From NCBI RefSeq assembly GCF_000023905.1, contig NC_013192.1:1674001-1738000 (forward strand): a stretch of DNA of 64,000 bases. The letters run 5' to 3'. This document shows positions 40,808 to 43,730 of this stretch, piece by piece (within the stretch, counting starts at the first letter, position 1; every line of letters starts with the position of its first letter). Source of the DNA: Leptotrichia buccalis C-1013-b. Its GTDB lineage: Bacteria > Fusobacteriota > Fusobacteriia > Fusobacteriales > Leptotrichiaceae. Below the pieces are notes generated by a model. The model did not search any database and was not told where the DNA came from. It saw only the letters and a program-made list of their open reading frames with translations. The translations under genes and the position numbers were made by a program.

Positions 40808-41224
40808 TTATAATTTCACTTCAACTTCACTTTCCAAGCTATATTCCATTTTCAAAAAATGCTCCCATCCTTCCAATACTCTCTTATATTCTTCAAATTT
40901 ACAGCTCCATATCGGATATTCCTCACAAATCCCAAAAATTGTATGTTCAAATTCAACTGTTTCCTTGTTAATCTTATGCTGAAAAGCCTGTCCGTCCCAA
41001 ATAATTTCCTTTAATTCTGCAGTTTCAATTTTTTCCAGCTTTAATAAAAAATCATCAATTATTTCTTCATAAGGAAAGTCCTCCATAATCCCAGTTACCA
41101 AGTATTTTATATATTCGTTCTTGTTTTTTTTATTTTCAAATATTTCTTTTTGAGAAAATTCTATTTCTGAAAATGCAGTCAATCCAAAATCTTCATCATT
41201 ATAATAACTAAATTTTATAATCAT
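40808..41224 (-). CDS. candidate immunity protein for the EndoU nuclease
   Basis: A 138-residue acidic soluble protein of no family I recognise. It begins MIIKFSYYNDEDFGLTAFSEIEF and has aromatic/acidic blocks (DFPYEEIIDDFLLKLEKIE, GICEEYPIWSCKFEEYKRVLEGW). It lies 45 bp downstream of the EndoU gene on the same strand, with a terminator after it. Small acidic proteins encoded directly after a toxin gene are commonly its immunity factor, so I infer that role from position and composition only. No strong ribosome binding site is visible close to the ATG. Confidence 0.6.
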   Translation of the reverse strand: MIIKFSYYNDEDFGLTAFSEIEFSQKEIFENKKNKNEYIKYLVTGIMEDFPYEEIIDDFLLKLEKIETAELKEIIWDGQAFQHKINKETVEFEHTIFGICEEYPIWSCKFEEYKRVLEGWEHFLKMEYSLESEVEVKL

Positions 41225-41269: not shown

Positions 41270-41872
41270 TTATCGATTTTCATAAATAGGATAAGCCGTT
41301 ATTCTAGGACTTTTATAACCACGAATCAAAACTCCGCTTTTACTGATACCTTGCCACATATTACTGTCTTTTCCTTTTACATCTTTTCTATTTTCCCAGG
41401 CAGAATTTATTTCATCAATAATTCTAGCTTCATCCCAATTTTCAGGAAACATAGTATTCACTCCGCCATTAGAAGTTTTTGCCTGCCAAGTTCCATCTTT
41501 TTTCTTCACTTCAATGCTTGCCCGATAAACACCATTTTTAGCTGGATTTCCAACTTTTTTCACAATTCTGACATCCCCACGCAAAAGTGAATGTCCGCCA
41601 GTAACTTTCCCGTGAGAATTCTCATCTCCACCAATTATATGGTCATAATCTATATTATATTTTCGATTTCCACTTTTTGAACCTGAATCTTTAGGCTGTT
41701 TTAAATTTTGCTTTTTTTGATTAGCTGATTTTGAATTATCACTTTTATTATTTTGTGCAATAACATTACTTTGTGTATTCAAACCACGATTTTTACTTAA
41801 ATATATTTTCCCAAATCCAAGTACAATAATAATTAATACTAACAAAATTTTAGATATTTTATTTTTATTCAT
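41270..41872 (-). CDS. membrane-anchored EndoU-family nuclease
   Basis: A 200-residue protein: N-terminal hydrophobic helix ~8-25 (KILLVLIIIVLGFGKIYL, signal anchor or signal peptide), a basic Ser/Asn/Lys linker (~30-72), and a C-terminal bacterial EndoU domain. Motifs: HIIGGDENSHG (His78), TGGHSLLRGD (His94), GVYRASIEVKKKDGTW and NTMFPENWDEARIIDEI (Thr140). EndoU nucleases cut RNA and often serve as toxins; the two His are the expected catalytic pair. It lacks the large delivery domains of CdiA or LXG toxins. GGAGG lies 9 bp before the ATG. Flanked by an antitoxin-like gene upstream and a candidate immunity gene downstream. Confidence 0.85.
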   Translation of the reverse strand: MNKNKISKILLVLIIIVLGFGKIYLSKNRGLNTQSNVIAQNNKSDNSKSANQKKQNLKQPKDSGSKSGNRKYNIDYDHIIGGDENSHGKVTGGHSLLRGDVRIVKKVGNPAKNGVYRASIEVKKKDGTWQAKTSNGGVNTMFPENWDEARIIDEINSAWENRKDVKGKDSNMWQGISKSGVLIRGYKSPRITAYPIYENR

Positions 41873-42124: not shown

Positions 42125-42133
42125 TGTAAACTT
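42125..42133. repeat. 9-bp target-site duplication, left copy
   Basis: TGTAAACTT, directly abutting the first base of the inverted repeat (CACGACAA). An identical copy abuts the right end at 43722-43730. Confidence 0.85.
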
Positions 42134-42277
42134 CACGACAAGTGCATGAAGATTAGATTAAATTTTTAATACTCGCAAATATAGAAAAAACAGCTATTAA
42201 AAAAATTAACTAACTTATTTTTTGATAATATTTTTTGATATTAGATTATTTTAATGAATTTTTAATATTTTGTGATG
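42134..42277 (-). repeat. left terminal MITE-like repeat
   Basis: About 144 bp. Reads as the reverse complement of the right repeat from CACGACAAGTGCATGAAG inwards, including the GCAAATATAGAAAAAACAGC block. Its inner end (TTTTGTGATG) is a worn version of the TTTGTCGTG end seen in the right copy, so this copy is shortened and decayed internally. Confidence 0.8.
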
Positions 42278-42295
42278 TAAAGTAAATTTAGGTCC

Positions 42296-42324
42296 TTGCT
42301 TTTCTCTTTTTCTTTGTGTATAAT
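42296..42324 (+). promoter_or_regulatory. promoter of the cassette genes
   Basis: TTGCTT (42296-42301), 17-bp spacer, TATAAT (42319-42324), just inside the left repeat. It gives a leader of ~310 nt before the DUF1722 gene. Confidence 0.65.
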
Positions 42325-42593
42325 TAAATAGAACTTGAGTAAACTTATTATAGTATCTGAAGAACTTAAATGCAATGCCTATTTTGCACATTGTCAGTGC
42401 TACTTTCAATACTCTTATCTTAGCCGTAATGAACATTCAAACGAGAAGATAATAAGAAAGATTGCATTAGAAAAGATGTCATTCTAAGAGCCGAAAAATG
42501 AAGCGATTACCATTATGATATAGCACTTTGAGGCTACGCTCTTCCGACTCTTTTAAAAAAAATAACTAACGAAAAATTGAAAGGAGAACATAG
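42325..42593 (+). other. long structured leader of the cassette operon
   Basis: No certain gene. A 50-codon frame (TTG 42335 to TAA 42487) containing YFAHCQCYFQYSYL has no ribosome binding site and starts at the predicted transcript start, so it may be a gene remnant. Around 42486-42543, AAGAGC and GCTCTT can pair. The region is less AT-rich than its surroundings. Confidence 0.35.
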
Positions 42594-42647
42594 ATGAAGT
42601 TAATGCTCATATATGATTTGAATATCTTGAAAGAAGGGCTGATGTGA
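42594..42647 (+). CDS. 17-residue upstream peptide
   Basis: MKLMLIYDLNILKEGLM, preceded by a strong AAGGAG 7 bp before the ATG. Its stop overlaps the GTG start of the DUF1722 gene (ATGTGA), the usual layout for translational coupling. It may be a leader peptide or the residue of a lost gene's N-terminus. Confidence 0.45.
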   Translation: MKLMLIYDLNILKEGLM

Positions 42648-43048
42648 ACCACATGAATAAAAAAAAAGAATGCGAAGAGCTATGGGCAAAAAATAAATAT
42701 TATGTGTTAAGCAAATCGCATAAAGTATACTTAGAAATAAGAAAGTATTTGAAAGAAAAAGAAATTGATATTGTATTTATTAATGAAAGAATACAAAAAG
42801 TAAAGGATATGAAAGAAAGTAAAAAAGATTTTAGTAATGCAATTCTTCATTTATGGGGATATTTCAAAAAAAAAGCAACGAAGATCGAAAAACAAGGATT
42901 ATTTAACATACTGGAAGAATATATGGGAGGGAAAAATAATCAGAAATCGGTAATTGAATATATCAATACTTTACTAAAGAAATATCCAAATAAATATTTA
43001 CAAGAATCTACTTTATTAACAGGAGAAAAAGATGAGACTATGGCATGA
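42644..43048 (+). CDS. DUF1722 (YbgA-type) protein
   Basis: A 134-residue soluble protein of the DUF1722 family: ELWAKNKYYVLSKSHKVYLEI (the family's FxxxHKxxLLAHS block), FSNAILHLWGYFKKKATKIEK (the HxxGYFK block), LEEYMGGK and KYPNKYLQESTLL. In E. coli ybgA is adjacent to the photolyase gene phr, and DUF1722 also forms the C-terminal half of TudS (thiouracil desulfidase); its own activity is unclear. GTG 42644 has AAGG 6 bp upstream and is coupled to the 17-residue peptide. The glycosylase gene starts inside its 3' end (17-bp overlap). Confidence 0.82.
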   Translation: MNHMNKKKECEELWAKNKYYVLSKSHKVYLEIRKYLKEKEIDIVFINERIQKVKDMKESKKDFSNAILHLWGYFKKKATKIEKQGLFNILEEYMGGKNNQKSVIEYINTLLKKYPNKYLQESTLLTGEKDETMA

Positions 43049-43400
43049 ACAAATTATTCATCTATTGCCTAAAAACCAGCTTCTTGGTCAACATAGAGAA
43101 TGTTGTGCACTTAGGGGAAATGGATGGAAAAAGAAACATAAAACAGTAGATTATGTATTTTTATATTCTCCATATTATTTATTTATTTATCATTCATTGG
43201 TTATGGATGAAATGGAAAAAAGAGGGTATAAAGTTTCTAAAGAATGGAGAGATAAGAATTATAGGGGAAAGAAAGCAGAAAATTACAATAATCTTGAAGA
43301 AAAAATTATAGATAGCCCGATTTACAAAGAACATGATAATGAATATTTAGTTGAGTGTATCGAAAACTTGCGAAAAAAAGGGATTAAATTGGAACTATAA
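43032..43400 (+). CDS. pyrimidine-dimer DNA glycosylase (TIGR02328 family)
   Basis: A 122-residue protein starting MRLWHEQIIHLLPKNQLLGQ, followed by HRECCALRGNGWKKKHKTVDYVF and YSPYYLFIYHSLVMDEMEKRGY, which are the conserved blocks of the endonuclease V-like pyrimidine-dimer glycosylases. T4 endonuclease V uses its N-terminal amine and Glu23 and has an HRE tripeptide; HRECCALRG (22-30) places His, Arg and Glu the same way. It should remove UV-induced pyrimidine dimers. AGGAG with a 6-bp spacing lies inside the DUF1722 gene; the two genes overlap and are surely co-transcribed. Confidence 0.88.
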   Translation: MRLWHEQIIHLLPKNQLLGQHRECCALRGNGWKKKHKTVDYVFLYSPYYLFIYHSLVMDEMEKRGYKVSKEWRDKNYRGKKAENYNNLEEKIIDSPIYKEHDNEYLVECIENLRKKGIKLEL

Positions 43401-43429
43401 AAGTTTTGATCGTTTTAACTACCACAACT

Positions 43430-43465
43430 CATTGTCCCACAAGGGAGACACGAGCCAATGATTCT
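43430..43465 (+). other. hairpin after the glycosylase gene
   Basis: TCATTG and CAATGA can pair, enclosing a smaller TCCC-ACAA-GGGA hairpin. No T-run follows, so it is not a classic terminator. It may be an mRNA-stabilising or folding element within the cassette. Confidence 0.35.
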
Positions 43466-43509
43466 TGTAATAATTTTTAGATAACAAAAACAGCTGTGAA
43501 AAGAGAATT

Positions 43510-43689
43510 ATGAAAAGAGTATTGGTTATAGGTTCCCACGACAAACACATGAAAAATTTATTAAAATGCTCTAATATTGAAAAATATTATATTCAAAAAA
43601 ATATTAAGATAAAAAATTTAAAATATTATCGAAAAAACAAGTTACTTAATTTTTTTAATAGCTGTTTTTTCTATGTTTGCAAGTATTAA
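43510..43689 (+). pseudogene. third cassette gene, cut by the right repeat
   Basis: A frame begins at ATG 43510 as MKRVLVIGS, the sort of start seen in Rossmann or P-loop proteins, and from codon 10 onward (43537) it runs into the right repeat, giving AT-coded low-complexity sequence to a stop at 43689. It looks like the 5' stub of a gene truncated by the repeat; it may also be chance. Confidence 0.4.
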
Positions 43690-43721
43690 AAATTTAATCT
43701 AATCTTCATTCGTTTGTCGTG
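43537..43721 (+). repeat. right terminal repeat, a complete MITE-like element
   Basis: 185 bp bounded by its own inverted ends: CACGACAAACACATGAA at the left and the complement of CACGACAAACGAATGAA at the right. So this copy is a whole small element in itself, while the left copy is a worn inverted partner. No duplication matching TGTAAACTT is found at its inner edge. Confidence 0.82.
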
Positions 43722-43730
43722 TGTAAACTT
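43722..43730. repeat. 9-bp target-site duplication, right copy
   Basis: TGTAAACTT, identical to 42125-42133 and directly following the last base of the right repeat. Confidence 0.85.

Follow-up and report, generated by a model that had tools for sequence, protein, structure and literature searches.

A DNA-repair module and the first codons of a crtI gene between two inverted miniature elements with ISAs1-type ends in Leptotrichia buccalis

In the chromosome of Leptotrichia buccalis C-1013-b two intact genes and the beginning of a third lie between two inverted copies of a small repeat, and the question is how this arrangement came about. The window (the whole 64,000-nt stretch analysed, G000:C1:1674001-1738000, from a genome consisting of a single contig of 2,465,610 bp) was compared with 12 other Leptotrichia genomes, and the features discussed below are listed in Table 1. 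The two repeat copies are together bounded by an exact 9-bp direct repeat, TGTAAACTT, a feature absent from an earlier reading made from the sequence only; two random 9-mers of the window are identical with a frequency of about 5e-5. Two congeners (G001 and G003) have an empty site with one copy of the 9 bp, TGTAAATTT, and flanks that are continuous on both sides. The duplication around the pair and the empty site therefore indicate that 42134-43721 arrived as a single insertion of 1588 bp, which supports the earlier proposal that an inverted pair had moved the segment between its members. As in a composite transposon, the target duplication surrounds the whole unit and two related miniature elements flank the cargo. 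No transposase frame of the kind that an ISAs1 insertion sequence (IS) encodes for itself is present in 42134-43721. We consider the insertion to be a non-autonomous composite transposon that is best explained as having been moved in trans by an ISAs1 transposase (probability roughly 0.85).

Table 1. Positions of the features in and around the insertion (window coordinates)
Feature	Position	Strand	Remarks
Left target-site duplication, TGTAAACTT	42125..42133	.	Identical to 43722-43730; present once at the G001 and G003 empty site
Left small element, ~144 bp	42134..42277	+	Outer end CACGACAAGTGCATGAA intact, inner end decayed
Spacer	42278..42570	.	Between left element and passenger genes; no match in 12 congeners
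Passenger gene 1, DUF1722 protein (PF08349), 134 aa	42644..43048	+	GTG start; ATG also at 42653
Passenger gene 2, pyrimidine dimer DNA glycosylase (PF03013, TIGR02328), 122 aa	43032..43400	+	Profile matches
Conserved structured leader preceding crtI in Lachnoanaerobaculum	43413..43478	+	66 nt; L069 518-583; L068 400-465
crtI-type carotenoid desaturase, first nine codons (MKRVLVIGS)	43510..43536	+	Frame continues through the element, stop at 43689
Right small element (185 bp), in inverse orientation to the left one, both ends intact	43537..43721	-	Alignment of copies
Outer right terminal inverted repeat, ISAs1-type	43705..43721	-	Recurrence of the end in the genus
Right target-site duplication, TGTAAACTT	43722..43730	.	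Matches 42125-42133

The right-hand repeat had been described as a whole 185-bp MITE with inverted ends of its own, and a whole element it is: its ends, CACGACAAACACATGAA (43537-43553) and TTCATTCGTTTGTCGTG (43705-43721), are 17-bp inverted repeats with two mismatches, and an equally good pair at this 185-bp span occurs nowhere else in the 64-kb window (1/63,600 positions). The inverted copy on the left is also real, being 92% complementary to the right element over 90 nt and in one further block, with an internal deletion of 39 bp relative to it. No duplication flanks the right element by itself (ATAGGTTCC on its inner, left side and TGTAAACTT on its outer, right side), which is expected if it arrived as the outer end of the composite. 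The name MITE fits it in part: it is short and non-coding and its terminal inverted repeats match those of an ISAs1-type IS in one congener (G012), but it fails on multiplicity, since solo copies of the 185-bp element, which the sequence-only reading had expected elsewhere in the genome, were found neither there nor in the 12 congeners; what recurs is the 17-bp end alone. A 170-bp sequence in G007 (L051 4463-4632) that may be a relative was not counted as a solo copy, since its left end has four mismatches and it lacks a target duplication. Other BLAST matches to the element (L003, L004 and many at E 1e-5 to 1e-3) are for the most part confined to its AT-rich middle and were regarded as chance matches.

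The ends of the insertion connect it with a family of autonomous elements. The end CACGACAAACGCATGAA, allowing up to two mismatches, is present in 9 of the 13 genomes as ISAs1-type ISs and their relics. In G012 this end is found at both extremities of a complete element, which has a 9-bp duplication (AGAAAATTT) and encodes a 380-aa transposase of the ISAs1 family (NF033564, E 6e-93), intact in one copy there. Independent elements that combine the 17-bp end with a 9-bp duplication are a second in G012 (TATAATTTT), one in G010 (TACTATTGC) and a cassette in G011 (TTGAAATAT). The terminal repeats and duplication length of the insertion are thus those of an element that encodes an ISAs1 transposase, and judged by its sequence 42134-43721 is by membership an ISAs1-type non-autonomous composite. 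As it shares only the terminal 17 bp with the autonomous ISs, while the sub-terminal DNA differs, movement in trans is something that we infer. No intact ISAs1 transposase was found in the L. buccalis genome, only relics of the gene (L108), so the insertion is probably now stranded there. Elsewhere in the genus, G011 has a 499-bp internally deleted ISAs1 relic (L109 1272-1770) between near-identical 9-bp duplications (GATATAGGA/AATATAGGA), and in G004 many copies of the ISAs1-type end are located at contig ends, which suggests that this genome carries many recent IS copies.

The third gene is crtI. From the ATG at 43510 the frame MKRVLVIGS enters the right element at codon 10, as had been noticed before, and the 27 bases 43510-43536 are identical at 25 positions to the crtI start of Lachnoanaerobaculum gingivalis (L069), where the gene encodes a 502-aa crtI-family desaturase (TIGR02734 crtI_fam, E 1e-127) and is followed by a squalene/phytoene synthase gene. 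The same leader precedes both starts, at 31 nt from the ATG in the window and 33 nt in L. gingivalis, so that coding start and upstream context both match a known crtI, in keeping with the earlier suggestion that the right element truncates a third gene. In 33 Leptotrichiaceae genomes no crtI homologue was found beyond the common nucleotide-binding motif, and for this reason the crtI scrap probably came from a Firmicute. The donor order is less direct. In L. gingivalis the genes run GNAT, leader, crtI, crtB, DUF92, DUF1722, glycosylase, GNAT; the leader is placed after the glycosylase gene both in the window and in Eubacterium brachy. An intact glycosylase–leader–crtI locus, or any longer gene directly after the glycosylase gene as the sequence-only reading had anticipated in relatives, was not found, the Lachnoanaerobaculum crtI–crtB genes preceding DUF1722. 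A donor with crtI after the glycosylase gene is therefore inferred rather than observed, and this order is the main gap in the reconstruction. In Lachnospiraceae oral taxon 107 (L065 4182-4310) the leader and the crtI start are kept and most of the crt operon is lost.

The leader was found only beside crtI or a crtI remnant, or in this cassette. Its hairpin has 15 consensus pairs, two of which show pair-keeping changes on both sides among six sequences. As a single sequence the window copy is predicted to fold no more stably than its shuffles, and support for the structure therefore comes from the alignment and from the copies in Lachnoanaerobaculum. There was no match to a family in Rfam 15 at E up to 1, and a search with the leader model through 397 genomes from the L. 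gingivalis family and 350 from that of E. brachy gave no additional copy, nor did viral contigs contain one. A wider proposal, which we regard as speculative and rather doubtful, is that a module for pyrimidine-dimer repair is being spread through oral Firmicutes and Fusobacteria by an ISAs1-type composite, which also picked up the leader, this being an undescribed regulatory RNA of a carotenoid operon.

Copies of the passenger pair show how the module has fared at other sites. Seven other Leptotrichia genomes have the pair with 95–98% identity, at two further sites, and E. brachy has it with 94%; the native neighbour gene, a histidine phosphatase, is 75–86% identical where BLAST aligns most of its length. 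In all copies (eight in Leptotrichia, and E. brachy for DUF1722) the two frames are intact, with 134 and 122 aa, and the glycosylase copies in Leptotrichia differ from that of the window with dN of 0.003–0.015 and dS of 0.03–0.16. With an intact frame and dN far below dS, the glycosylase is probably in use. At the second site (G001, G002, G003, G004 and G010) the module lies before a peptidyl-prolyl isomerase gene and argG, with AATTATTTT on both sides, and G008 offers a candidate empty site for the locus (AATAATTTT). These copies end within GAGAATTAT, which in the window precedes the ATG, and their right flank starts with AATTATTTT; the simplest reading is that a slippage deletion between two AATTAT stretches would have taken out both the right element and the scrap of crtI. 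At the third site (G006 and G011) what comes after the module is the 3' part of an ISAs1 transposase gene and then a normal right end, the duplication being TTGAAATAT (with one mismatch in G006), and this form is without the leader, which the window and E. brachy have, as do the copies at the argG locus. The left end of the G011 cassette is split (L050 4031-5775) by an IS200/IS605-like element with a short transposase gene and a TnpB-like gene. The spacer has no relatives in the genus (42275-42545, most of it, was searched). Direct repeats ending in AACTAAC (ends at 42214 and 42570) enclose it together with the inner part of the left element, and the stretch between them is missing in every Leptotrichia cassette copy except that of the window, which is consistent with a deletion between these repeats. 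Plasmid and phage collections gave only distant relatives of the glycosylase, and no plasmid or phage vehicle was found among them.

On the composite-transposon reading, the cargo carried between two short, inverted, non-coding, ISAs1-ended elements is the DUF1722 gene, the glycosylase gene, the crtI leader and nine crtI codons. The right element would have landed in a donor crtI gene located after the repair genes, a second copy would have been situated upstream of them, and an ISAs1 transposase acting in trans would then have used the two outermost ends and inserted the 1588 bp, duplicating 9 bp of target. An alternative is that the module first moved as an IS-like mobile insertion cassette, such as that in G006 and G011, and that the right end in the window, instead of being a second inserted element, arose later when recombination duplicated the left end in inverted orientation. 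The G006/G011 form does have the same left end and passenger genes, with a transposase remnant, an ordinary right end and the duplication TTGAAATAT, and the two ends in the window are 92% alike over 90 nt. That form, however, looks derived, having lost the leader that the window has in common with E. brachy and with the copies at the argG locus, and a duplicated left arm, with its inner end decayed as it is now seen, would not supply the intact inner terminal repeat of the right element; we think this course of events unlikely. AT-rich DNA yields many weak repeats, and one might therefore take the repair module to be native, the flanking repeats to be chance or independent insertions and the third frame to be random, but this is refuted by the exact 9-bp duplication and the empty site in two congeners, as well as being contradicted by a passenger identity far above that of the native neighbour and by the match of crtI start and leader, and it is to be considered extremely improbable.

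Taken as a composite transposon, the insertion resembles the TIME-COMP elements, which are composites with a miniature element derived from Tn3 at each end (PMC4133298, PMC13367494), in that a pair of short non-coding elements, whether inverse or direct in orientation, mobilizes the DNA between them via a transposase from elsewhere, with a duplication around the whole. TIME-COMPs belong to the Tn3 family, make 5-bp duplications and have been shown to transpose with a trap plasmid (PMC4133298, PMC13367494), whereas the L. buccalis insertion has ISAs1-type ends and a 9-bp duplication and is known from sequence; they carry other genes, including antibiotic resistance, where the cargo here is DNA-repair genes. 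In Acinetobacter a pair of 439-bp MITEs around class 1 integrons (PMC3934969) likewise truncates its cargo at both ends and has a duplication around the whole, but this is of 5 bp and the pair encloses a resistance integron on a plasmid, as against 9 bp and repair genes on a chromosome. With the full IS of G012 the insertion has the terminal repeat and 9-bp duplication in common, and it differs in having no transposase gene and in sharing nothing beyond the terminal 17 bp. Mobile insertion cassettes, in which passenger genes lie between IS ends without a transposase, describe well the G006/G011 form, with its IS ends, passengers and mere transposase remnant, while the ends in the window are two whole small elements, not one left and one right end.

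The insertion is thus a mobile element of an ordinary kind, a MITE-bounded composite transposon, with an unusually readable history. It allows the movement of a DNA-repair module between species by short ends without a transposase to be followed completely, from the empty site through to copies in decay, and the gene scrap inside it points to a donor in another phylum, probably another oral bacterium. The published composites of this kind considered here are mostly on plasmids and many surround antibiotic resistance genes (PMC4133298, PMC13367494, PMC3934969), in contrast to the present cargo of chromosomal repair genes under purifying selection. Elsewhere in the window, 41270-41872 on the minus strand encodes a protein with a bacterial EndoU nuclease domain (PF14436) and is followed by a small unassigned gene (40808-41224, minus strand), an arrangement that resembles a toxin with its immunity gene.
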